Origin: an uncultured bacterium
Lineage (GTDB): Bacteria > Bacteroidota > Bacteroidia > Bacteroidales > CAIXTV01
Direction of reading: 5' to 3'
NCBI GenBank assembly: GCA_903922465.1
Contig: CAIXTV010000010.1
Span: 1 to 48,005 of the forward strand
Length of the DNA: 48,005 nt
This document shows positions 28,012 through 46,696 of this stretch, in pieces (the stretch's first letter is position 1; each line of letters opens with the position of its first letter). Under the pieces are notes generated by a model. It made no database searches and had not been told where the DNA came from. It saw only the letters and a list, made by a program, of their open reading frames with translations. Made by a program: the position numbers and the translations under genes.

Positions 28012-29313
28012 ATGATAAAACAAATTGTTTTCACAGCCCTTTTGCTTCTAACAATGGGTGTATTCTCATACACACTCTTGAGGCTGATTTCTTTTTTTAA
28101 GCTCACCAAACCTTTTCCCATAAAAGACATTCCTCGTCGCTTTATGTTGATGTTTGAAGTAGCGTTTGTTCAAACTAAAATATTCAGACGTCCTTTGATT
28201 GGACTGATGCACGCCCTTGTGTTTTGGGGCTTTTGTGTCATATTGATTGGAAGTGTTGAAATAATTATTGATGGTCTTTGTGGAATAGAAAAATCGCTAG
28301 CCTTTCTTGGTAAGTTTTATAATGTCATTTTTGCCTCAGGTGATATTTTCGCTTTTCTAATTCTCATCTTTATCATTTTATTCATAAGCAGAAGAGCCTT
28401 TTTAAATATTAAAAGATTCACAGGCGTTGAAATGACCCATAAAAATCATTTGGATGCCTACATCGCGCTAAGCATTATACTCCTGCTTATGGTTTCTCTT
28501 CTAGGGATGAATACTTTTTATGTTACATCGACGAATCCTGCAGAAATCAAAGGCTTGTATCCTGTGAGCAGTTTTTTCGCAGGTTTATTAGGTAGGGGAG
28601 AAGAAGATGCAATGCTTTATCAAATGTTTTGGTGGATGCACATCCTATTAATCTTCGTTTTCGCCAATATCTTGCCCTATTCAAAGCATTTTCATGTGTT
28701 CTTATCGGTTCCGAATGTGTTTTTAAGCAGGTTGGAACCTCTTGGCAAACTTCCTAACATGGAAAGCATTACTACTGAAGTTAAGATGATGATGAATCCC
28801 GAAACTGCCTTTGCTGCTCCCCCTTCAGATGCTCCTCCTTCTCGCTTTGGAGTTAAGGATGTGGAAGATGTTACGTGGAAGAACTATTTCGACTCACTCT
28901 CATGCACACAATGTGGCCGTTGCACCTCTGTTTGTCCTGCTAATTTGACAGGAAAGAAATTATCGCCCCGAAAAGTGATGATGGATTTACGTGCTAGAAT
29001 GAATGAAATTGGTCCACTGTTAGTTAAAAACGGTAAAGATTATACAGATAATAAATCATTGATACGCGATTATATTTCTGCCGAAGAAATTTGGGCTTGC
29101 ACTACCTGCAATGCCTGTGCACAGGAATGTCCAATCAATATTAATCATCCTACTTTGATTGTTGATATGCGACGATTTCTTGTGATGGAAGAAGCTGCTG
29201 CCCCAACTGGTTTGAATGCCATGTTTACGAATATAGAAAATAATGGTGCTCCATGGCAGTTCTCGGGTCAGGACCGTATGCTTTGGGCTAACGAATTATA
29301 TAGCAAGGAATAG
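28012..29313 (+). CDS. membrane 4Fe-4S dicluster protein, EMO-like N-terminal half
   Basis: A 433-residue protein. Five or so membrane helices lie in residues 1-225 (about 3-24, 62-85, 108-128, 148-170, 203-222), with His67 and His210 inside helices as plausible heme b ligands in the style of NarI. The cytoplasmic part has two ferredoxin-type sites: C298, C301, C304, C308 (CTQCGRCTSVC) and C363, C366, C369, C373. The next gene, 3 bp away, supplies CCG domains. Together they match, split in two, the membrane FeS oxidoreductase (EMO, DUF224 type) that carries electrons from EtfAB to menaquinone. HdrC- or GlpC-like alternatives exist, but etfBA and two acyl-CoA dehydrogenases lie within 12 kb. 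Confidence 0.82.
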   Translation: MIKQIVFTALLLLTMGVFSYTLLRLISFFKLTKPFPIKDIPRRFMLMFEVAFVQTKIFRRPLIGLMHALVFWGFCVILIGSVEIIIDGLCGIEKSLAFLGKFYNVIFASGDIFAFLILIFIILFISRRAFLNIKRFTGVEMTHKNHLDAYIALSIILLLMVSLLGMNTFYVTSTNPAEIKGLYPVSSFFAGLLGRGEEDAMLYQMFWWMHILLIFVFANILPYSKHFHVFLSVPNVFLSRLEPLGKLPNMESITTEVKMMMNPETAFAAPPSDAPPSRFGVKDVEDVTWKNYFDSLSCTQCGRCTSVCPANLTGKKLSPRKVMMDLRARMNEIGPLLVKNGKDYTDNKSLIRDYISAEEIWACTTCNACAQECPININHPTLIVDMRRFLVMEEAAAPTGLNAMFTNIENNGAPWQFSGQDRMLWANELYSKE

Positions 29314-29316
29314 ATT

Positions 29317-30114
29317 ATGGAAAATACCAATAAGATAGTTGTGCCTGTGATGGCAGATGTTTTTGCAAAAGGCGAAAAACCTGAATTCCTTTTTTGGGTG
29401 GGATGTGCCGGTGCTTTCGACGACAGATATAAGAAAGTTGTGCGTGCTTTCACCAAGATTTTAACCCATTTCAAAATAGATTATGCCGTGTTGGGAACTG
29501 AAGAAACCTGCACAGGCGATCCTGCCCGTCGTGCCGGAAACGAAATGCTCTATCAGATGCAAGCCCTCACCAATATTGATACTTTCAGTCGCTATGAGAT
29601 TAAAAAGATATTGACCATCTGCCCTCATTGCTTCAATATATTTAAAAATGATTATCCCGACTTAGGTGGAAATTACGAAGTGATACATTACACCCAGTTT
29701 CTGCAAGGCCTTGTTAAGGGCGGGAAACTTAAGATGGATTCGGACGTCTTTCAATCAAAGAAAATCACTTTTCACGACCCATGTTATTTGGGCAGAGCCA
29801 ACAAAGAATATGCTGCCCCACGTGATGTGCTGGATGCTATCCCAGCTGAAAAAGTTGAGATGCATCGCAACAAAAGCTTTGCCTTGTGTTGTGGAGCTGG
29901 TGGTGGACAAATGTTTAAGGAAGCAGAAGCCGGCGAAAAAGAAATCTTTATCGAACGCACCGAAGAAGCCATTGCCACAGGTGCCAACATCATTGCAAGC
30001 TCTTGTCCATTTTGCATGACGATGCTCACCGATGGTTTGAAATATAAAAATAAGGAAGAAGAAATTCAGAATTTAGACATTGCTGAATTGGTGGTGGGTG
30101 CTTTGAATTTATAG
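29317..30114 (+). CDS. CCG-domain (Fe-S)-binding protein, EMO-like C-terminal half
   Basis: A 265-residue cytoplasmic protein with two cysteine-rich CCG-type repeats. First: C30, C65, C102 and C105 (WVGCAG, EETCTGDPARR, ICPHC). Second: C156 (HDPCYLGR), C191-C192 (CCGAGGG), C230 and C233 (SSCPFC). CCG repeats bind the unusual clusters seen in heterodisulfide reductase HdrB and its relatives. ATG is 3 bp after the upstream stop, so translation is coupled. I read it as the catalytic partner of the membrane dicluster protein, receiving electrons from reduced EtfAB. Direct proof of partner and acceptor is lacking. Confidence 0.85.
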   Translation: MENTNKIVVPVMADVFAKGEKPEFLFWVGCAGAFDDRYKKVVRAFTKILTHFKIDYAVLGTEETCTGDPARRAGNEMLYQMQALTNIDTFSRYEIKKILTICPHCFNIFKNDYPDLGGNYEVIHYTQFLQGLVKGGKLKMDSDVFQSKKITFHDPCYLGRANKEYAAPRDVLDAIPAEKVEMHRNKSFALCCGAGGGQMFKEAEAGEKEIFIERTEEAIATGANIIASSCPFCMTMLTDGLKYKNKEEEIQNLDIAELVVGALNL

Positions 30115-36265: not shown

Positions 36266-37237
36266 CTAATTCCCTTTTAGCTCTTTAACCGCTGTAATCA
36301 TCTCCGGCAACACCTTCAGCACATCGCCCACAATACCATAGTCAGCCGCTTCAAAAATAGGTGCATCAGGGTCTTTGTTGATAGCCACAATGCATTTCGA
36401 ACCACTGATACCACCAAGATGCTGAATAGCACCCGAAATACCGCAAGCGATATACAGATTAGGTGCAAGTATCTTGCCAGTTTGGCCGGTATGTTCTTCA
36501 TGAGGACGCCAGCCTTCGTCTGAAACAGGGCGGGAGCAAGCAGTTCCGGCGCCTAATAAGGTAGCAAGTTCTTCTATGCTTCCCCAGTTTTCGGGACCTT
36601 TCATTCCTCTGCCACCCGAAACCACAATTTCGGCATCGGTAAGCAATATTTTGCCGCTTACTTTATTCACGTCCTTCACTTCGGTCTTTAATTCGTTGTC
36701 CTTAATTTCAGGATTGAATGCCTCAATGCTAGCAGCAACAGGGGTTTCGAAAACACCAAAAGCATTCTGCAACAAAGTGACGATGCTCACCGGAGTTTTG
36801 ATCACCACATTGGCAATTGCCTTAGCAGTAAATACCTTTTTGGCAATGGTGAAAGGTTGGAAATTTGAAGGTAAAGCAAGTACGCCTGTTGCTAAACCAG
36901 CTTTCAATCTAACAGAAAGGCGGGGTGCGATGGCTTTTCCTGTATTGTTATGAGCAAAAACAATAAGTGTGGCACCTTCTTTAGCAGCGGCTTGTGCCAA
37001 AACAGAAGTGTAAGCTTGGTTGTTCAAGTTGATCAAATTTTCATTTTGAACATTCAATATTTTTGAAGCACCATAAGTGCCCAATTTATTTAATTCATCG
37101 TCATTCACTTTTCCAATAGATAAAGCAACAACGTTTGTGTTTAGGGTTTTTGCAATTTCGCAAGCAAATGAAACTAATTCAAATGATAGTTTTTTGAATT
37201 TCCCGTCCCAGTTTTCTGTATAAACAAGTACTGACAT
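36266..37237 (-). CDS. etfA: electron transfer flavoprotein, alpha subunit
   Basis: A 323-residue FAD-binding subunit. The N-terminal alpha/beta domain (1-190) is followed by the signature FAD domain: VVSGGRGMKGPENWG, SRPVSDEGWRPHEEHTGQTGK, YIACGISGAIQHLGGI and NKDPDAPIFEAADYGIVGD. It takes electrons from acyl-CoA dehydrogenases together with EtfB. Same strand as etfB and the acyl-CoA dehydrogenase, but with a 159-bp gap after etfB. Confidence 0.95.
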   Translation of the reverse strand: MSVLVYTENWDGKFKKLSFELVSFACEIAKTLNTNVVALSIGKVNDDELNKLGTYGASKILNVQNENLINLNNQAYTSVLAQAAAKEGATLIVFAHNNTGKAIAPRLSVRLKAGLATGVLALPSNFQPFTIAKKVFTAKAIANVVIKTPVSIVTLLQNAFGVFETPVAASIEAFNPEIKDNELKTEVKDVNKVSGKILLTDAEIVVSGGRGMKGPENWGSIEELATLLGAGTACSRPVSDEGWRPHEEHTGQTGKILAPNLYIACGISGAIQHLGGISGSKCIVAINKDPDAPIFEAADYGIVGDVLKVLPEMITAVKELKGN

Positions 37238-37396: not shown

Positions 37397-38146
37397 CTAT
37401 ATTACCTTCGCCTCGTTGTGTAACAATTGAACAAGTTCCTTAACGTTATCGGGGTCAATCTTTTTGCAGGCAGCCTTAGGTTTTGGTAAATCATAAGTTG
37501 CAAATTCTGTCAAAGTTTCCGTTTGAATGGCTTCAATCACTTGTAAAGGTTTGGTGCGAGCGCCCATAATCCCTCTCATCGAAGGAATGCGTGGTTCTTT
37601 AGCAATACCTTTCTGTACAATTCCAACAAAAGGAATAGGAGTGCTCACGGTTTCTTGTCCCCCATCAATTTCTCTTTTTAGTTCAACTTTTCCATCTTTA
37701 ATATCGAAATGCGAAACCGACGAAACCGAAGGCATATCAAGCAATTCGGAAAGCATACCCCCAACATTGTTTCCGTTCGAATCGCTCGATTCAATTCCGC
37801 AAAGAATAATGTCGAAAGATTCCTTACTGATGACATCAGCCAATTGGCTTGCCACAGTGAATGCATCTTTAGGCTCAGCATTAATACGAATCCCTTTGTC
37901 GGCTCCAATTGCTAAAGCTTTTCTAATGGTAGGTTCGGTAGCTGCCAAACCTACATTAATAACTGTAATTTCTTCAACCATTCCGGCTTGTGCATCTTTA
38001 ATGTCAAGTGCTCTGGTAAGGGCAAGTTCATCCCAGGGGTTAATTATCCATTGAACACCTGCTTGATCAAATGCCGTATTGTTATCGGTAAATTTGATTT
38101 TTGTGGTAGTATCAGGGACATTGCTAATACAAACGAGTATTTTCAT
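37397..38146 (-). CDS. etfB: electron transfer flavoprotein, beta subunit
   Basis: A 249-residue AMP/FAD-binding subunit: VCISNVPDTTTKIKF, INPWDELALTRALDIK, DIILCGIESSDSNGNNVGGMLSELL and the C-terminal block MRGIMGARTKPLQVIE. Pairs with EtfA. It sits 118 bp downstream of the acyl-CoA dehydrogenase gene, giving the classic dehydrogenase-etfB-etfA order. Whether this ETF bifurcates cannot be decided from motifs I can read; the presence of an EMO-like pair in the window favours ordinary transfer to quinone. Confidence 0.95.
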   Translation of the reverse strand: MKILVCISNVPDTTTKIKFTDNNTAFDQAGVQWIINPWDELALTRALDIKDAQAGMVEEITVINVGLAATEPTIRKALAIGADKGIRINAEPKDAFTVASQLADVISKESFDIILCGIESSDSNGNNVGGMLSELLDMPSVSSVSHFDIKDGKVELKREIDGGQETVSTPIPFVGIVQKGIAKEPRIPSMRGIMGARTKPLQVIEAIQTETLTEFATYDLPKPKAACKKIDPDNVKELVQLLHNEAKVI

Positions 38147-38264: not shown

Positions 38265-39404
38265 TTATTTCAAAAGCGATCTCGAAATAACAATTTTCTG
38301 AACTTCTGATGTTCCTTCGTAAATTTGTGTGAGTTTGGCTTCACGCATAAGTCTTTCAACATGATATTCTCTAACGTAACCATATCCGCCAAAAATCTGA
38401 ACAGCTTCTGTAGTAACTTCCATTGCCATGTCGGCACAATATTGTTTAGCCATTGCGCTAGCAGTTCCATAAGGCAAATGTTGATCTTTTAGCCAGGCTG
38501 CTTTTAAACACAGATTTCTTCCATTTTCGATTTTCACAGCCATATCCGATAATTTAAAAGCAACGGATTGGTGATTGAAGATTTCAGTTCCAAAAGCTTT
38601 TCTTTCCATAGAATATTTTAAGGCACGTTCAAAAGCACCTGAAGCAATACCTAAAGCTTGAGAAGCGATTCCGATTCGGCCTCCTTCTAAAGTCTTCATT
38701 GCGAAAGGAAATCCAAATCCATCTTCCCCAATTCTGTTTTCTTTTGGGACTTTCACGTCATTAAACATTACCGAATGTGTATCTGAACTTCTCATCCCCA
38801 TTTTATTTTCATGAGGTCCTAAAGTGATGCCTGCTGAATTTTTATCCACAATCAAAGCATTAATGCCTTTGTGTTTCTTTTCGGGATTAGTTTGGGCAAT
38901 TACTATGTAGGTTGAAGCTGAATTGGCATTGGTAATCCAGTTTTTGGTGCCATTTAGTAAATAATGGTCTCCTTTGTCTTCAGCTGTGGTTCTTTGAGAA
39001 GTTGCATCTGAACCAGCTTCAGGCTCCGATAAAAGGAAAGCCCCGATTTTTTGGCCACTGGCCAAAGGTCTCAGGAACTTTTGTTTTTGTTCTTCATTCC
39101 CATAAGTTTCAATTCCCCAAATAACAAGGGAGTTGCAAACAGACATTAACACTGCCACAGATGAATCAATTTTAGAGATTTCTTCCATTGCCAATACGTA
39201 TGAAATGGTATCCATGCCTCCTCCATCATACTTTGGATCGGTCATCATGCCTAAAAATCCCAATTCAGCTAACTTCTTAACATGTTCGGTAGCAAATTCT
39301 GATTTCTCGTCTCTCTCGATAACATCTTGTAGTAATTCCCTTTCAGCAAAGTCTTTAGCGGCTTGCTGTATCATTTTTTGTTCTTCAGTAAATTCGAAAT
39401 TCAT
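38265..39404 (-). CDS. acyl-CoA dehydrogenase (short/medium-chain, butyryl-CoA-type)
   Basis: A 379-residue flavoenzyme from the ATG at 39404 (NFEFTEEQKMIQQAAKDF, a standard start). The frame stays open to 39590, but those 62 residues are hydrophobic and atypical and I reject them. Blocks: AFLLSEPEAGSDATSQ (FAD/substrate), NWITNANSA, ERKAFG, the FGGYGYVREYHVER region, and the catalytic base Glu363 in YEGTSE. It oxidises acyl-CoA to enoyl-CoA and passes electrons to EtfBA encoded next to it. Chain length is probably short. A TATCTTTG promoter element lies at 39467-39474. Confidence 0.92.
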   Translation of the reverse strand: MNFEFTEEQKMIQQAAKDFAERELLQDVIERDEKSEFATEHVKKLAELGFLGMMTDPKYDGGGMDTISYVLAMEEISKIDSSVAVLMSVCNSLVIWGIETYGNEEQKQKFLRPLASGQKIGAFLLSEPEAGSDATSQRTTAEDKGDHYLLNGTKNWITNANSASTYIVIAQTNPEKKHKGINALIVDKNSAGITLGPHENKMGMRSSDTHSVMFNDVKVPKENRIGEDGFGFPFAMKTLEGGRIGIASQALGIASGAFERALKYSMERKAFGTEIFNHQSVAFKLSDMAVKIENGRNLCLKAAWLKDQHLPYGTASAMAKQYCADMAMEVTTEAVQIFGGYGYVREYHVERLMREAKLTQIYEGTSEVQKIVISRSLLK

Positions 39405-39466
39405 TGATAAAAGTTTTATTTTGATTATGTATTGGATTAATCGCCTAATGGTAATTAGTAATGCAA

Positions 39467-39474
39467 CAAAGATA
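39467..39474 (-). promoter_or_regulatory. candidate -7 promoter element for the acyl-CoA dehydrogenase/etf genes
   Basis: On the minus strand this reads TATCTTTG, an exact TAnnTTTG match, 62 bp before the ATG at 39404. The same octamer drives the divergent gene (39710-39717). Confidence 0.5.
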
Positions 39475-39602
39475 AAAAGATTTGAATTAAATGGAATAAT
39501 AATTTGTCTTATTTTTTTTGAAGACACATATAATGCTAGTAAAACTGAATGGAAATGAGTGTTTAACGAATAATAAAATTTCTGTTTCATTGTAAAACAT
39601 GG

Positions 39603-39745: not shown

Positions 39746-40924
39746 ATGGCTACAAATCAATACAAAGCCCCCGATTACTATTTATTAGATGACCTTTTAA
39801 CTGAAGAACATAAGCTAGTTCGTGGCGCAGTAAGAGATTGGGTAAATCGATCCGTAATTCCTATAATTGATGAGGCTTGTCAATCTCATACTTTTCCACG
39901 ACATTTAGTTAAAGAACTTGGCGAAATAGGAGCTTTTGGACCTTACATTCCTCAACAATATGGTGGTGCAGGATTAGACCATATTGCTTATGGTTTGATT
40001 ATGCAAGAACTCGAGCGTGGTGATTCGGGTATACGTTCTATGGCTTCAGTTCAATCATCACTTGTGATGTATCCTATTTATAGTTTTGGAACCGAGGAGC
40101 AAAAGATGAAGTATTTGCCTCTGCTTGCCTCAGGTGAAATCATAGGATGTTTTGGATTAACGGAACCCAATCACGGCTCTGATCCTGGAAGTATGATTAC
40201 AAGAATTACTGATAAAGGTGATCATTATATACTTAATGGAGCAAAAATGTGGATAACCAATTCTCCTATTGCTGATATAGGTGTGGTTTGGGCAAAGGAT
40301 GATGAGGGTGTTGTAAGAGGAATGATAGTCGAGCGAGGGATGAAAGGATTCACAACTCCCGAAACCACTAAGAAATGGTCATTAAGAGCATCATATACAG
40401 GTGAGATGGTATTTGATGATGTTGTCATTCCTAAAGAAAATATACTACCAAATGTTAAGGGATTGAAAGGCCCAATGATGTGTTTGAATTCAGCAAGGTT
40501 TGGTATCGCATGGGGTGTAGTTGGCGCTGCAATGGATTGTTATGATGTTGCATTAAATTATTCGAAAGAAAGAATTCAATTCAAAAAACCAATTGCAGCT
40601 TTTCAATTAACGCAAAAGAAGCTTGCCGAAATACTTACCGAAATAACAAAAGCGCAATTATTAGCTTGGCGTTTAGGTGTGCTGCGTAATGAGAATAGGG
40701 CTACACCAGCACAAATATCGATGGCGAAAAGGAATAATGTTAAAATGGCTCTCGATACAGCAAGGGAATCGAGGCAGATATTAGGAGCAATGGGGATAAC
40801 AGGTGATTTTCCTATGATGCGACACATGATGAATCTCGAATCGGTTATCACTTACGAAGGAACCCATGATGTTCATCTGCTTATAACAGGTATGGACATT
40901 ACAGGCGAAAGCGCTTTTTCCTAA
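39746..40924 (+). CDS. gcdH: glutaryl-CoA dehydrogenase-like enzyme
   Basis: A 392-residue acyl-CoA dehydrogenase of the glutaryl-CoA type. The glutarate-binding signature is intact: Glu90 and Arg97 in ELERGDSGIRSMASVQSSLVM (same 7-residue spacing as human Glu87/Arg94). Also LTEPNHGSDPGSM, KMWITNSP and catalytic base Glu371 in TYEGTHD. It oxidises and decarboxylates glutaryl-CoA to crotonyl-CoA, an intermediate of lysine/tryptophan and of anaerobic benzoyl-CoA breakdown. First gene of the plus-strand operon; the Mo-enzyme gene follows after 30 bp. Electrons presumably go to the EtfBA encoded divergently. Confidence 0.88.
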   Translation: MATNQYKAPDYYLLDDLLTEEHKLVRGAVRDWVNRSVIPIIDEACQSHTFPRHLVKELGEIGAFGPYIPQQYGGAGLDHIAYGLIMQELERGDSGIRSMASVQSSLVMYPIYSFGTEEQKMKYLPLLASGEIIGCFGLTEPNHGSDPGSMITRITDKGDHYILNGAKMWITNSPIADIGVVWAKDDEGVVRGMIVERGMKGFTTPETTKKWSLRASYTGEMVFDDVVIPKENILPNVKGLKGPMMCLNSARFGIAWGVVGAAMDCYDVALNYSKERIQFKKPIAAFQLTQKKLAEILTEITKAQLLAWRLGVLRNENRATPAQISMAKRNNVKMALDTARESRQILGAMGITGDFPMMRHMMNLESVITYEGTHDVHLLITGMDITGESAFS

Positions 40925-40954: not shown

Positions 40955-43753
40955 ATGAAGCAACTAAATATAAAAATCAATGGCAAGCAATTTCATCTGA
41001 TGGTGAAAGAGCATGAGATGCTGTCAACTGTTATTCGTGAAAAAGCAGGCCTAACGGGAACCAAGATTGGTTGCGAACAAGGAAGTTGTGGGGCATGCAC
41101 TGTTTTGATAAACAATGAAGCAGTGCTGAGTTGCATAAGCCCTGCATTACGATATGAGAATGCTGAAATTACCACCATCGAAGCTCTTGCTAAAGATGGG
41201 GTTCTGCATAAGCTTCAGAAGAAATTCGTTGAAAAAGGAGCTATTCAATGTGGATTCTGCACTCCCGGTATGGTTTTGACTGCACTCAGTTTGACGCCAA
41301 GCCTTAATTTAGAGGATGGAATGGAGGTTCTCACTCGTCAGGTTAAGGAAGGCTTGTCAGGAAATTTATGTCGGTGTACGGGTTATAAAAAAGTAATTGA
41401 TGCGGTAGTAGAATATGCTATTGAATCTTCGGAATCGATAGAAGAAGATGTTGAGCCTTTAAGTAGCAGTGTAGCTGTAGGAGTAAGCAGGCCTTATATT
41501 GAAGCAGAAAAAAAAGTTAAAGGTGCTGCGGAATATGCCGACGATATTGTGATGAAAAACACTTTGCATTGCAAATTGTTACGCAGTAAATATCCACATG
41601 CCAAAATTGTTGAGATTGACACTTCAGAAGCACTTAAGCTGGATGGAGTGCATTATATTGCAACAGGAAAAGAACTCCCCATTACTTTTGGAGTACTTCC
41701 CATTTCACAGGATGAGACAGCTATGGCTGTTGATAAAGTGAGATACGTAGGTGAAGTTGTTGCTGCAGTTGCTGCTGATAGTGAGGGTATTGCTGGTGAA
41801 GCATGTAAACTTATTAAAATCACCTATAAGCAACTTCAACCATTTTTAAATATTGACGAGTCATTGAATGATGTTGGCGAAAATGAAAGGATTCATGATA
41901 CTGGCAAGTTTAATAACAATATTCATAAGAAAGCTGAGTTGAGATTTGGTGACCAGCAAAAAGGATTAACAGAAGCTGATGTCACCACTAAAATGTCATT
42001 TGAGTTTTTGGGAATTAATCATGGTTTTACTGAACCTCATGCAGCTACAGCTTTTTGGGATGAAAACGGATTGACAATTACTACAGCGACTCAGGTGCCA
42101 CATTATTTGCATCGCGCTTTGGCAAAGGTGATGGAGGTTCCGTTAAGCAGGGTTAGAGTAATAAAACCTTATCTTGGTGGTGGTTTTGGTGGGAAAAGTG
42201 ATCCATTTCCACATGAAATGATTGTTTCACATTTAGCTCGGAAAACAGGACGACCCGTGAGAGTGAGATTATCTCGCGAGGAAGTTTTCATAACAAATCA
42301 CGGTAGGCATCCTTCTAAGATGTCAGTTGAAATGGGTGTTTCATTGAATGGAGAATTTAAAGCATTAGATGCTGATATTGCAATAGATGGTGGTGCTTAC
42401 GGTAGTTTTGGTGTTGTGACTTCTTATTATAATGGAGTCTTATTACAAGCACCTTATAAGTTAGATAACTTTGGGTTTCGGGCTTTTAGAGTTAACACCA
42501 ATAAACCTCAATGCGGTGCGATGAGGGGACATGGTGCTGTTAACTCTCGTTTTGCTGTTGAATCAATTATTGATGATTTAGCAATGAAAATTAATATTGA
42601 TCCCTGCAAGTTGCGTTTACAGAACTTTTTAACATCCAATACTCAAACGGTTGGGCAATATCGTATCACTTCAAATGGAAGTCGAGAAGCTTTACTTAAA
42701 GTAATGGAGCAATCGGAATGGGATAAGAAAATAGGGACATTGGAAAGCGGACATGGATTGGGCGTGGCTTGTGGGTTTTTTATTAGCGGAAGCGCGTTGC
42801 CTATTATTTGGAATGAGTTGCCTCAGTCGGTTGTGCATTTGAAACTCGACTTTGACGGCAGGGTGTTGGTAACTTCAGGCTCAAGCGATATTGGACAGGG
42901 TAGCGATACTATGTTGGCGATTATTGTTGCCGAAGTTCTTGGAATTAGTATGGATAAGATTTTTGTTCTTGCTGCTGATACTTTGCTAACTCCTGTTGAT
43001 TTTGGAAGCTATTCGAGTAGGGTTACTTTTATGGCTGGCAATGCAGCAAAGGATGCAGCTGAGAATTTGAAAAAAGAAATTATCGAAGCCATCGTTAAAG
43101 CTAAAGGTGTTGATGCGGAAGAACTGAGTTTTTCGGATAGCAGGGTGTTTAGTTTTGATAAGGCAGTAGATTTATCGTGGATGGAAACTGTTGATATACT
43201 CACCGCAAAACGTGGTGCGGTTTCTGTTAGTGGAAAATATATTTCACCCAAGCTTGGTGGAGACTTTAAGGGTGCAGGTGCAGGTTTAAGTCCTTCTTAT
43301 ACTTTTGGTGCTTGTATTGCTGAGGTCAAGGTAGATATAGAAACAGGCCAAGTGAAAGTGATGAACGTTTGGGGAGCACATGACTGTGGGAAGGCTATAA
43401 ATCCTATGGCTGTTGAAGGGCAGCTAGAAGGTTCGTGGCATATGGGAGTGGGGCAAGCCATCAGCGAGCAGATGAAATACTATAAAGGACTATTATTAAA
43501 TAATAACTTCCTCGATTATAAAATCCCAACCTCGCTTGATACTCCTGATATTCATGCAAACATAATTGAAACCATTGACCCTGAAGGACCCTTTGGCGCA
43601 AAAGAAGCAGGGGAGGGGGCAATTCATCCTGTGATTCCTGCCATTGCAAATGCAGTGTTTAATGCTGTTGGTGTTCGGATAACAAAATTGCCGATCAATG
43701 CAGAAGATGTGCTAGCTCAGATTAGAGATCATCAAATTTCAAACAATAAATAA
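40955..43753 (+). CDS. fused HcrC-HcrA-type molybdenum hydroxylase (4-hydroxybenzoyl-CoA reductase-like)
   Basis: A 932-residue fusion. Residues 1-160 are the [2Fe-2S] subunit: C40, C45, C48, C60 and C99, C102, C139, C141. After a linker come the a/b hammerhead (about 180-285) and molybdopterin domains (to about 920), with YLGGGFGGKSDPF, MRGHGAVNSRFAVE, GQGSDTML, SYSSRVTFMAGNAA and Glu887 in GAKEAGEGA. The small plus large subunits of 4-hydroxybenzoyl-CoA reductase are about 161 and 769 residues, which sums to this length, and several blocks resemble that enzyme more than xanthine dehydrogenase. The gene for the FAD subunit follows directly. Function as an aryl-CoA reductase or hydroxylase is inference from family and partner. 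Confidence 0.82.
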   Translation: MKQLNIKINGKQFHLMVKEHEMLSTVIREKAGLTGTKIGCEQGSCGACTVLINNEAVLSCISPALRYENAEITTIEALAKDGVLHKLQKKFVEKGAIQCGFCTPGMVLTALSLTPSLNLEDGMEVLTRQVKEGLSGNLCRCTGYKKVIDAVVEYAIESSESIEEDVEPLSSSVAVGVSRPYIEAEKKVKGAAEYADDIVMKNTLHCKLLRSKYPHAKIVEIDTSEALKLDGVHYIATGKELPITFGVLPISQDETAMAVDKVRYVGEVVAAVAADSEGIAGEACKLIKITYKQLQPFLNIDESLNDVGENERIHDTGKFNNNIHKKAELRFGDQQKGLTEADVTTKMSFEFLGINHGFTEPHAATAFWDENGLTITTATQVPHYLHRALAKVMEVPLSRVRVIKPYLGGGFGGKSDPFPHEMIVSHLARKTGRPVRVRLSREEVFITNHGRHPSKMSVEMGVSLNGEFKALDADIAIDGGAYGSFGVVTSYYNGVLLQAPYKLDNFGFRAFRVNTNKPQCGAMRGHGAVNSRFAVESIIDDLAMKINIDPCKLRLQNFLTSNTQTVGQYRITSNGSREALLKVMEQSEWDKKIGTLESGHGLGVACGFFISGSALPIIWNELPQSVVHLKLDFDGRVLVTSGSSDIGQGSDTMLAIIVAEVLGISMDKIFVLAADTLLTPVDFGSYSSRVTFMAGNAAKDAAENLKKEIIEAIVKAKGVDAEELSFSDSRVFSFDKAVDLSWMETVDILTAKRGAVSVSGKYISPKLGGDFKGAGAGLSPSYTFGACIAEVKVDIETGQVKVMNVWGAHDCGKAINPMAVEGQLEGSWHMGVGQAISEQMKYYKGLLLNNNFLDYKIPTSLDTPDIHANIIETIDPEGPFGAKEAGEGAIHPVIPAIANAVFNAVGVRITKLPINAEDVLAQIRDHQISNNK

Positions 43754-43759
43754 GTGAAT

Positions 43760-44692
43760 ATGTTAACAGAACAAGGCTACATCAAAGCAAAGTCAGTAGA
43801 AGAAGCATTTGTTAATGCAAACAATCACCTTGATGGTTTTCGATATGTTGCTGGAGGGACTGATGTTATTGTCAATAAATTTCAGGGGAATGAAGATGCC
43901 CAAATCTTGATTGATATTTCGGGAATTGAAGAACTAAAGCATATAAAAATCAAGGAAGATTACATCGAAATTGGTGCTTTAACAAAGTTAGACGATTTAA
44001 AGAAACACAATATCATTTCCGATAGGTTCCCATCGCTGATTGAAGCTGCAGAGGCTGTTGCTTCACCCGTCATTAGAAAAACCGCTACTATAGGTGGTAA
44101 TATTCTTTGTGAGAATCGTTGCACCTTTTATAATCAAAGTGAATGGTGGAGAAGTGCTGCTGGATATTGCCTGAAATGTAATGGCGATATTTGCATTGCA
44201 ACAGGGGGTAAAAACAATTGTTTATCGAAATTCGTTTCCGATACTGCAATTGTTTTGATTAGTATAGATGCGAAGATTGAGGTGTCCGATCATCAACAAA
44301 CAAGCATCATCCCTATCGAAAGCATTTATTCGGGCGATGGGGTGAATTCACGGAATTTAAGCAAAACAGCCCTCTTGAAATCTATTCTGATTTCTAATAC
44401 AGAAGAATATCAAACCATTTATAAGAAATTGCGTCAACGCGAGACTATCGATTTCGGATCGTTGATGACAGCAGTGAGCCTGAACAATGAGAAAGTGAAA
44501 ATAGTGTTGGGTGGAGTTGATCCTAAGCCTATTGTGGTGGAAGGAAATATTGAGGATGATTTAAATGAGTTGATACTTCAGGCAACAAAAAAAGCAAGAA
44601 CTGTTGATAATGATGTATATTCGAGGAAGTATAGAAAGGAAATGATTGCGGTGTTTTTGAAGAGAAGTTTGCAGGAATTGAAGCTCATGTAG
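43760..44692 (+). CDS. HcrB-like FAD subunit with an extra [4Fe-4S] cluster loop
   Basis: A 310-residue FAD-binding subunit (CO dehydrogenase/xanthine dehydrogenase type). FAD blocks are YVAGGTDVIV and IRKTATIGGNILCE. An inserted loop of about 40 residues holds cysteines at 121, 137, 145 and 154 (NRC, GYC, DIC, NNC) with spacings 16, 8 and 9. To my recollection this is the spacing of the four cluster cysteines of 4-hydroxybenzoyl-CoA reductase HcrB (C122, C138, C146, C155), a feature ordinary xanthine dehydrogenases lack. A GTG at 43754 in frame is an alternative start. Located 6 bp after the fused Mo subunit; the two surely form one enzyme. Confidence 0.85.
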   Translation: MLTEQGYIKAKSVEEAFVNANNHLDGFRYVAGGTDVIVNKFQGNEDAQILIDISGIEELKHIKIKEDYIEIGALTKLDDLKKHNIISDRFPSLIEAAEAVASPVIRKTATIGGNILCENRCTFYNQSEWWRSAAGYCLKCNGDICIATGGKNNCLSKFVSDTAIVLISIDAKIEVSDHQQTSIIPIESIYSGDGVNSRNLSKTALLKSILISNTEEYQTIYKKLRQRETIDFGSLMTAVSLNNEKVKIVLGGVDPKPIVVEGNIEDDLNELILQATKKARTVDNDVYSRKYRKEMIAVFLKRSLQELKLM

Positions 44693-44728: not shown

Positions 44729-45463
44729 ATGGATTTAACAGGTAAAACCGCTGTTGTAACAGGGGGAAGTCAGGGGATAGGTGCAGCAATAGCCATAACT
44801 TTAGCTGAACTTGGGGCAAATATTGCCATCATCGATCGCAAAGAAGCCGATGAAACCCTCTCTGATATTAAAAAGTTGGGAAGAAAAGCTTGTATGTTTA
44901 TTGCCGATATTTCGAATTTCAAAGAAGCACAACTGACTGTGGATGCTATTGTTAAAGAATTTGGTTCGGTGGATATTCTTGTGAATAATGCAGGGATTAA
45001 CCAAGATGGAGTGATTTGGAAAATGACAGAAGAGCAATGGGATAATGTTATCAGTGTGAATCTTAAAGGCTATTTTAATTATATACGTGCAGTTTCGCCC
45101 ATCTTTAGAGAACAAAAATCGGGGAAGATTATCAATATTACCTCCATTAATGGTTTAAGAGGGAAGTTTGGGCAGTCGAATTATGCTGCTTCAAAGGCTG
45201 GGATAGTTGGACTGACCAAAACTGTTGCCAAGGAGCTAGGGAAATATAATGTTAACGTCAATGCTGTGGCGCCCGGCTTAATTGAAACTGAAATGATGAA
45301 AAATGCTGATGATGTTGTAAGAGAGGCGGCTATGGGAGAGATAGTGTTGGGACGATTTGGGCAGGCCAAAGATATTGCCAATACGGTTGCATTTCTTGCC
45401 TCCGAATTATCGAGGCATATAACAGGAGAAGTGATTAAAGTGGATGGTGGTCAATATATTTAA
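44729..45463 (+). CDS. SDR-family 3-oxoacyl reductase / 3-hydroxyacyl-CoA dehydrogenase
   Basis: A 244-residue short-chain dehydrogenase. Cofactor motif TGGSQGIG (11-18), NNAG (86-89), and the catalytic triad Ser139, Tyr152, Lys156 (Y-x3-K in SNYAASK). Asp36 at the end of beta-strand 2 (IIDRKE) favours NAD(H) over NADP(H), which suits oxidation of a 3-hydroxyacyl-CoA rather than fatty-acid synthesis. C-terminal PGLIETEMM and DGGQYI are standard. Between the Mo enzyme and the thiolase, it likely acts on a beta-oxidation intermediate; FabG/PhaB-like activity is the alternative. Confidence 0.85.
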   Translation: MDLTGKTAVVTGGSQGIGAAIAITLAELGANIAIIDRKEADETLSDIKKLGRKACMFIADISNFKEAQLTVDAIVKEFGSVDILVNNAGINQDGVIWKMTEEQWDNVISVNLKGYFNYIRAVSPIFREQKSGKIINITSINGLRGKFGQSNYAASKAGIVGLTKTVAKELGKYNVNVNAVAPGLIETEMMKNADDVVREAAMGEIVLGRFGQAKDIANTVAFLASELSRHITGEVIKVDGGQYI

Positions 45464-45505: not shown

Positions 45506-46696
45506 ATGGACGTAAATGATATCGTAATTGTTTCAGCATGCAGGACTGCTATGGGCAGGTTTGGTGGGACACTCAAAAGCATACCTTCTTATGATTTAGG
45601 GGCTGTTGTGATAAAAGAAGCTCTGAAAAGGGCTGCTTTGTCGGGAGATCAAATTGATGATGTGATATTGGGAAGTTGCCGACAGGCGGGGAATGGGCCC
45701 AATCCGGCACGAAGTGCTGCTGTTAAGGGGGGCATTGCCATGGAAACCCCTGCTATTACGCTGAATATGGCTTGCCCTTCGGGGATGAGGGCTGTGGCTA
45801 TGGCTTCTCAAGCCATTCGTTTGGGCGAAGCTGAGATTATGCTAGTTGGTGGGTTCGAAAGCATGAGTTCTATTCCTTATTTATTAAAAAATGCACGTTG
45901 GGATGGCTTTAAGATGGGTAATAAAACCCTCGAAGATGGTTGGAGCGACAGCATCGACCCCTTAATAGGGCAGGGGATGGGCGAAACGGCCGAAAATCTT
46001 TCCGATAAATATAAAATATCAAGAGAAGAACAAGACGAATATGCCATGAACAGTCATCTGAAGGCGGCTCATGCTCAGAAAAGCGGATGGTTCGACGAAG
46101 AAATTGTGAGTATTGAAGTAGAAGGAAGCAAAAATGCCACTTCAATTGTGTTTGATAAAGACGAAACCATACGCACATCAATAAATATGAATGATCTAGC
46201 TAAAATTAAGCCCGCTTTTCGCAAGGAGGGAACGGTTACGGCAGGAAATTCGTGTGGCTTGAGCGATGGAGCGACGGCTTTGGTGATGATGAGCCGTAAG
46301 AAAGCTGCCGAAATGAATCTAAGTCCCTTGTTTTCGATAGTTTCATATGCTCAGTTGGCTGTTAATCCATCAACTATGGGCGAAGGGCCATCTTTTGCGA
46401 TTCCTGCGGCTTTGAAAAATGCAAACATGACACTCGATGAAATCGACCTCTTTGAAATTAATGAAGCCTTTGCTATTCAGGCTTTGGTAAATCAAAAAAC
46501 GTTGCAGATTGAGCCTGAGAAATTAAATGTCAATGGGGGTGCAATCGCCCTTGGTCATCCTACAGGAATCAGCGGTGCGCGCATTTTGGTCACGGCTTAT
46601 TATGCTTTAAAAAGACTTCAGAAAACCTATTGCGTTGCTTCCATTTGTGGTGGGGGCGGAGTGAGCTCGGCTATGGTTATTAAAAGAGAATCGTAA
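45506..46696 (+). CDS. thiolase (acetyl-CoA C-acetyltransferase type)
   Basis: A 396-residue thiolase. Nucleophile Cys90 in NMACPSGMRAV, NEAFAIQALV, His351 in ALGHPTGISGARI, and Cys381 in CGGGGVSSA. It cleaves or forms 3-oxoacyl-CoA with CoA. Cys90 is followed by Pro where classical thiolases often have Ala (CASG). Probable partner of the upstream SDR in the last steps of beta-oxidation to acetyl-CoA. Last gene of the operon, ending shortly before a weak hairpin. Confidence 0.92.
   Translation: MDVNDIVIVSACRTAMGRFGGTLKSIPSYDLGAVVIKEALKRAALSGDQIDDVILGSCRQAGNGPNPARSAAVKGGIAMETPAITLNMACPSGMRAVAMASQAIRLGEAEIMLVGGFESMSSIPYLLKNARWDGFKMGNKTLEDGWSDSIDPLIGQGMGETAENLSDKYKISREEQDEYAMNSHLKAAHAQKSGWFDEEIVSIEVEGSKNATSIVFDKDETIRTSINMNDLAKIKPAFRKEGTVTAGNSCGLSDGATALVMMSRKKAAEMNLSPLFSIVSYAQLAVNPSTMGEGPSFAIPAALKNANMTLDEIDLFEINEAFAIQALVNQKTLQIEPEKLNVNGGAIALGHPTGISGARILVTAYYALKRLQKTYCVASICGGGGVSSAMVIKRES

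Follow-up and report, generated by a model that had tools for sequence, protein, structure and literature searches.

Positions 40,955 to 44,692 of a 48,005-nucleotide stretch of DNA from an uncultured Bacteroidales bacterium (contig CAIXTV010000010.1 of assembly GCA_903922465.1; the whole stretch is called the window here) hold a gene pair that, judging by sequence, probably encodes a two-polypeptide variant of ferredoxin-fed 4-hydroxybenzoyl coenzyme A (CoA) reductase (HCR) acting in the anaerobic benzoyl-CoA pathway. The small and large subunits are fused in the first protein, both proteins carry the expected cysteine sets, the molybdenum (Mo) domain is sister to that of HcrA, a tyrosine column shared with HcrA is conserved, and genes of the benzoyl-CoA pathway occur in the same genomes. 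The pair is made up as follows.

40955..43753, plus strand: fused hcrCA-like gene, 932 amino acids; small (two [2Fe-2S]) and large (Mo) subunits in one polypeptide; best PDB match 1rm6_A (E 2.5e-177)
40970..41152, plus strand: Fer2 plant-type [2Fe-2S] domain, residues 6-66, Cys 40/45/48/60 (Pfam, alignment)
41174..41407, plus strand: Fer2_2, second [2Fe-2S] domain, residues 74-151, Cys 99/102/139/141 (Pfam, alignment)
41408..41521, plus strand: linker joining the small-subunit-like and Mo-subunit-like parts (gap between Pfam domains; middle part variable, consensus partly unresolved)
41522..41836, plus strand: Ald_Xan_dh_C a/b hammerhead domain, residues 190-294 (Pfam)
41912..42628, plus strand: MoCoBD_1, residues 320-558, containing Tyr492 (codon 42428-42430), which aligns with HcrA Tyr326 (Pfam, alignment)
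42701..43546, plus strand: MoCoBD_2, residues 583-864 (Pfam)
43754..44692, plus strand: hcrB-like flavin adenine dinucleotide (FAD) subunit, 312 amino acids; GTG start immediately following the fused gene's stop codon; Pfam FAD_binding_5; PDB match 1rm6_B (1.4e-41)
44120..44221, plus strand: [4Fe-4S]-type insertion, Cys 123/139/147/156, gaps 16/8/9, with an extra Cys142 (sequence alignment)

A scan of 84,980 species genomes with the FAD subunit gave 261 relatives, and all counts of loci below cover the best 80 of these 261. Of the 80 loci, 69 have the fused gene at full length, taken as an open frame of at least 900 amino acids; in two (L063 and L080) it lies in pieces, and in nine it is cut by a contig end. 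None of the 80 was seen to have intact, separate genes for the small and large subunits instead. An earlier note on this DNA had described a 932-residue protein with both [2Fe-2S] sites (eight cysteines) and a Mo domain, followed by an FAD subunit with four cysteines spaced 16/8/9, and the Pfam domains and alignments agree with it on every point. The eight cysteines of the [2Fe-2S] sites (C40, C45, C48, C60, C99, C102, C139 and C141) do not vary in any of the 21 aligned proteins, and both motifs are present in all 69 full-length fused proteins. The gaps between C123, C139, C147 and C156 of the FAD subunit are exactly those of Thauera HcrB (1rm6_B). Because this exact spacing is kept in 79 of the 80 homologous loci (the exception, L116, has the cysteines with a short insertion between them), it is not a matter of chance; the extra C142 is invariant in 32 aligned proteins.

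The same note held that such an insertion sets HcrB apart from its relatives, and this stands for the spacing and falls for the insertion as such. A Cys-rich insertion alone is not diagnostic of HcrB because PaoB-type proteins share one, and it was rejected as proof of HCR. The gaps are 10/9/19 in Escherichia coli PaoB (5g5g_B) and 12/9/19 in 5y6q_B, and among the sequences compared it is the 16/8/9 spacing that separates HcrB from PaoB-type proteins. When 395 genomes drawn evenly from the phylum were searched with the FAD subunit, 79 gave some match, and 30 loci were stored (weaker matches were neither stored nor checked): two of the 30 have the HCR spacing (the window and genome G118), 14 have the Pao pattern and 14 have neither, most of the last still being Cys-rich.

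Sequence and structure searches point to the same relative. Against the PDB the fused protein scores 595 bits with 1rm6_A versus 339 for the next solved family (aldehyde oxidoreductase, AOR), and the FAD subunit 146 bits with 1rm6_B versus 68 for the next. The best NCBIfam model for the fused protein is TIGR03194, the HcrA model (823.5 bits versus 562.5 for the next model), and the HcrB model ranks first for the FAD subunit at 213.8 bits. Foldseek searches with AlphaFold models placed 1rm6_A first for the fused protein and 1rm6_B at the top for the FAD subunit. A maximum-likelihood tree of the Mo domain (36 sequences, 742 columns, LG+G4+F, 1000 ultrafast bootstraps) sampled every third of the 69 full-length fused proteins and added the window, 24 in all, with L008 left out. 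In it the fused group and the one classical HcrA included (1rm6_A) are sisters, with an ultrafast bootstrap of 100. The two proteins of a second fused type, discussed below, join next (97), and then one further relative (98). AOR, CoxL, 7dqx and the glyceraldehyde and xanthine enzymes all fall outside. The earlier note had named two outcomes that would refute its reading, a Mo domain firmly inside the xanthine or CO dehydrogenase clades away from HcrA, and four cysteines missing from the family alignment. Neither occurred: the Mo domain goes with HcrA, and the four cysteines prove to be conserved across the family.

The active site agrees with this position. Tyr326 of HcrA belongs to the HCR active site. 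At its column each of the 69 full-length fused proteins (from the window, G118 and 67 loci) has Tyr, as do HcrA and both proteins of the second fused type, and Tyr is absent from the other ten rows of the table; the oxidative references have Arg (xanthine dehydrogenase, XDH, and AOR), Ile (7dqx), Pro (CoxL) or Ser (4zoh). The catalytic Glu, four columns past residue 722, is Glu in every row printed except the gapped T2_G046C3. The idea of an ordinary xanthine, CO or aldehyde enzyme was considered as well and was rejected, since the Tyr column, the Cys spacing and the position in the tree all speak against it.

Genes for the reduction of benzoyl-CoA accompany the pair. Class I BcrB was sought in the 50 best-scoring of the 80 pair genomes and passes the curated cut-off in 44, versus two of the 395 phylum genomes. 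Fisher's exact test (44/50 versus 1/394) gives a p-value of about 6e-53, which is only a guide because related genomes are not independent draws. The two positive genomes of the even draw are G118 and G352, the latter lacking the four-Cys pair. Elsewhere among these 50 pair genomes, BcrB is in two pieces in two (G457 and G489), and G456 (locus L062) has only a weaker HgdD2-type match.

The window genome (G000) has no BcrB above the cut-off, only an HgdD2-type match of 146.6 bits. Its contig C179 (L144:625-11321) carries a complete-looking bamB-I cluster for the tungsten class II benzoyl-CoA reductase: BamB matches 4z3w_A at 1258.5 bits and the adjacent BamC matches 4z3w_E at 5.8e-79, the best models at the BamE and BamH positions are HdrA2 and NuoF (under their cut-offs), BamF, G and I are assigned from gene order only, and a protein at the BamD position is also present. 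After the bam genes come Had and Oah over their cut-offs and Dch under its own (204.7/292.5), and the contig also encodes an HgdD2-type protein with its ATPase, as well as two proteins named by similarity to other loci, a thiolase and a 3-hydroxyacyl-CoA dehydrogenase. Among 22 genomes searched, BamB is found at full strength in G000 and G456, with 35%-identical relatives in G046 and no match at E 1e-30 in the rest. BcrB was seen in G000 and G456 neither whole nor in pieces; the class I and class II reductases therefore look interchangeable behind the same fused enzyme, on the strength of these two class II cases. The glutaryl-CoA dehydrogenase upstream of the pair fits the lower end of the pathway.

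These associations also bear out, as far as sequence reaches, the earlier suggestion of an enzyme that adds or removes a hydroxyl on an aromatic acyl-CoA: the tree, the cysteines and the pathway genes all favour it, 4-hydroxybenzoyl-CoA being the probable substrate. For the bound cofactors, the direction of electron flow, the ferredoxin donor and the exact substrate, the guide is the HCR of Thauera, whose structure was reportedly described by Unciuleac et al. in 2004. The 932-residue protein would supply the HcrC and HcrA parts and the 312-residue protein the HcrB part. By analogy with Thauera, low-potential electrons from ferredoxin, perhaps reduced by the KorA or NifJ encoded near some of the pairs, would most likely reach the FAD subunit's [4Fe-4S] cluster first and travel by way of FAD and both [2Fe-2S] clusters to the Mo centre, which would remove the para-hydroxyl of 4-hydroxybenzoyl-CoA as water and leave benzoyl-CoA. 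In the window genome a class II BamB-type reductase would dearomatise this product, a task that would fall to class I BcrABCD in most of the relatives searched; Dch, Had and Oah would open the ring, and beta-oxidation by way of glutaryl-CoA, using the upstream dehydrogenase, would lead to acetyl-CoA. A broader proposal, to which I give about even chances, is that uncultured Bacteroidota of several orders run an anaerobic benzoyl-CoA pathway with a fused HCR as entry enzyme and an interchangeable dearomatising step (mostly ATP-driven class I, tungsten class II in the window lineage), the fusion fixing the [2Fe-2S] relay to the Mo site and leaving the ferredoxin-accepting flavin/[4Fe-4S] subunit alone separate.

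What else could the pair be? It is rather unlikely that it dehydroxylates a different hydroxyaryl-CoA or a phenol by the same mechanism, at another ring position or on a larger substrate. The equivalog cut-offs of the HCR models were all missed (alpha 823.5/994.55, beta 213.8/404.55, gamma 139.6/257.8), three of the 50 pair genomes (G465, G473 and G481) gave no match to BcrB and none to BamB, and the reductive enzyme Ucdh, whose closest characterised relative is HCR at 32.7% identity, acts on urolithin C according to passages of its description (PMC12771579). However, it is specifically benzoyl-CoA-consuming enzymes with which the pair is associated, and the protein is 41% identical to HcrA over the trimmed Mo alignment and keeps the Tyr column. 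An oxidative enzyme, a hydroxylase like xanthine dehydrogenase or an aldehyde oxidoreductase that passes electrons from Mo to FAD/NAD or quinone, seems quite improbable: the tree sets the fused group apart from AOR, CoxL, XDH and the glyceraldehyde and pseudooxynicotine enzymes, the Tyr column lacks the Arg of XDH and AOR, and a reductive enzyme fits both the Cys insertion with its HCR spacing and the genes for ferredoxin oxidoreductases and benzoyl-CoA reductase. It draws its appeal from the small-plus-Mo fusion, which is the layout of Desulfovibrio aldehyde oxidoreductase 1sij (the second-best family by both sequence and Foldseek), and from the family at large, most xanthine oxidase family members being oxidative according to passages of the same paper (PMC12771579). 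Finally, the link to the pathway in the window genome could be a binning accident, with the bam contig or the window contig coming from another organism. G000 is a metagenome-assembled genome (MAG) of 312 contigs with 3.98% contamination, and the two clusters lie on separate contigs (C10 and C179). Yet an independent MAG, G456 (L062), has both the fused gene (83% identical) and BamB (90% identical), and in L059, the closest relative, a block of glutaryl-CoA dehydrogenase, fused HCR, FAD subunit, SDR and thiolase genes lies about 4 to 8 kb from genes for the ATPase, HgdD2 (89% identical to that of C179), Dch and Oah, which makes such an accident very improbable.

Several results weigh against the pair being an HCR as proposed. 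Besides the missed cut-offs, the three genomes with neither reductase and the bam cluster on its own contig, the small domain scores slightly higher against the XDH-type XdhC (159.6) than against HcrC (139.6), and G352, which bears bcr genes, has another fused type in place of a four-Cys pair. The tree contains a single classical HcrA because searches for more yielded none, neither in plasmid records (identities below 60% throughout, with no listed row named hydroxybenzoyl-CoA reductase) nor in viral contigs; since only the best 80 of the 261 relatives of the FAD subunit were kept, any classical HCR among the remaining 181 would go unseen. The AlphaFold model of the fused protein is moderate (mean pLDDT 68.8) and residues 121-159 of the FAD subunit, exactly the Cys insertion, fall below 50, so the geometry of the [4Fe-4S] cluster is beyond the reach of the models. 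In the tests run, HCR is nevertheless the closest known relative, and as far as is visible the pair would work like it. It is not certified as a member of the HCR family because it falls short of the equivalog cut-offs and because alpha and gamma, separate subunits in HCR, are fused here.

Compared with known systems, Thauera aromatica HcrABC (PDB 1rm6/1sb3; TIGR03193, 03194, 03195) shares with the pair its domain set, the 16/8/9 insertion, the Tyr column, the sister position of the Mo domain and the benzoyl-CoA pathway context, whereas the window pair differs in its fused small and large subunits, its sub-cut-off scores, its Bacteroidota host and the extra conserved C142. Desulfovibrio aldehyde oxidoreductase (PDB 1sij/1dgj) also has its [2Fe-2S] domains fused to the Mo domain, but lies on a separate branch and has Arg instead of Tyr at the active-site column; its chains are not known to have an FAD/[4Fe-4S] partner. 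PaoABC-type aldehyde oxidoreductase (PDB 5g5g) and 5y6q resemble the pair in their Cys-rich insertion and differ in its gaps, in having three separate subunits and in being oxidative (named aldehyde enzymes). Ucdh of Enterocloster bolteae, as described in passages of PMC12771579, is likewise a xanthine oxidase family enzyme that carries out reductive dehydroxylation para to an electron-withdrawing group, but has three separate subunits and a non-acyl-CoA substrate and comes from a gut bacterium.

A second fused HcrCA-like type, about 45% identical, occurs at L146:4194-6995 (within L146:4194-7898, genome G352) and L054:1752-4406 (G046). It resembles the window protein in the small-plus-Mo fusion and in the Tyr column, but branches outside the window group and HcrA, and in G352 it is paired with an FAD subunit without the four-Cys insertion. 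The G352 protein scores best with TIGR03194 (947.7 bits), and bcr genes lie beside the G352 pair. This type may have the same function and draw on a different electron donor.

The earlier note had expected a fused HcrCA beside glutaryl-CoA dehydrogenase to be unusual in this phylum. It is no one-off, given the 80 loci, and it is rare under even sampling: one other genome of the 395, G118, has a close FAD subunit (54%), and its pair is also fused (73% identity over the whole protein) with the 16/8/9 spacing. Within the same order, 17 of 60 genomes gave some match to the fused protein, the best at 43% identity (G046, second type), and none of the 60 held a close orthologue. By record title, 76 of the 80 loci belong to Bacteroidota groups, two to Ignavibacteria, one to Competibacteraceae (L131) and one to Thermoanaerobaculia (L124); the last two records could reflect transfer or misbinning. 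Several of the Bacteroidota genomes with the pair are titled from lakes or groundwater.

When lignin, humic matter and pollutants are broken down, cleaving aromatic rings anaerobically is a bottleneck. Breakage of the benzene ring without oxygen has seldom been reported for Bacteroidota. Passages of a 2024 study record no bcr or bam in 37 representative genomes of the FCB superphylum and bcr in 16 of 40 MAGs of Krumholzibacteriota, of the same superphylum (PMC10936416). Passages of PMC5946492, PMC4846661, PMC10477309, PMC8099898 and PMC8166890 contain no report of a Bacteroidota benzoyl-CoA reductase. The parts of the open-licence literature consulted reported neither a fused HCR nor bcr or bam genes from Bacteroidota, which does not establish absence from print. 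In the present data the fused HCR marks Bacteroidota genomes that carry bcr or bam, class I and class II reductases replacing one another downstream of a shared entry enzyme. If the proposal holds, the fused HCR would serve as a marker gene for an overlooked guild, and as a simpler, two-polypeptide enzyme for studying reductive dehydroxylation.

The genes around the pair in the window are the following.

36266..37237, minus strand: electron transfer flavoprotein, alpha
37397..38146, minus strand: electron transfer flavoprotein, beta-like (read from sequence; homologue in L059)
38265..39590, minus strand: acyl-CoA dehydrogenase, divergent, in a beta-oxidation context
39746..40924, plus strand: glutaryl-CoA dehydrogenase-like, upstream of the fused gene (best PDB match 2.3e-130; under NCBIfam cut-offs)
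44729..45463, plus strand: short-chain dehydrogenase/reductase (SDR; library match; homologue in 42 of the 80 loci)
45506..46696, plus strand: thiolase (NCBIfam/Pfam)

The neighbouring glutaryl-CoA dehydrogenase had been named in the earlier note, and its seven best PDB matches carry that name; a homologue lies directly upstream of the fused gene in L059, L067, L068, L096 and L099. Gene families in the loci were counted as single-linkage clusters at 35% identity or more, of which one or a few members were scanned against the libraries (the HADH family was named by reading its sequence), and many of the 80 loci are shorter than the full flanks. Counted in this way, the companions are hemerythrin-like proteins (43 loci), SDR (42), XdhC/MobA-type maturation proteins (38), BcrA-type ATPase (20), dch (17), oah (16), HADH (16), thiolase (14), BcrB (13), Had (13), BcrC (12), NifJ (10) and KorAB (6). 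At least one of BcrB, BcrC, BcrD, Oah, Dch and Had lies within the fetched flanks in 31 loci, and a ferredoxin-reducing KorA or NifJ in 16. G118 has a stretch reading HADH-dch-oah-had-thiolase-ATPase-HgdD2-ligase-bcrD-(saccharopine dehydrogenase-like)-bcrA-bcrB-bcrC, adjoining MobA-XdhC-SDR-fused HCR-FAD subunit-KorAB-hemerythrin; its BcrB, BcrC and BcrD pass their curated cut-offs and BcrA is under its own.

A protein of HgdD type, about 410 amino acids long and mostly with one BcrA-type ATPase, accompanies had, oah and dch in class I and class II genomes alike (L144:18445-19698 on C179 of G000, L059:16937-18969, L146:8959-10155 and L151). G046 and G219 have Oah over the cut-off and this protein, without BcrB over the cut-off and with no strong match to BamB, although in G219 the HgdD-type protein does not lie next to oah; these genomes may have a third way of dearomatising the ring. 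In the window itself, positions 28012-30114 hold two genes that encode 4Fe-4S dicluster and CCG domains; the product of the second is 38% identical to the BamD-position protein of C179. The hemerythrin-domain protein found near the pair in 43 of the 80 loci (L057:17798-18352 was scanned) might sense or scavenge oxygen on behalf of a pathway sensitive to it. An enzyme of the tryptophanase/tyrosine phenol-lyase family lies near the pair in seven of the 80 loci, including L070:12086-13459, which is over the subfamily cut-off and under both equivalogs; a phenol-releasing lyase in this position would feed the 4-hydroxybenzoate route.

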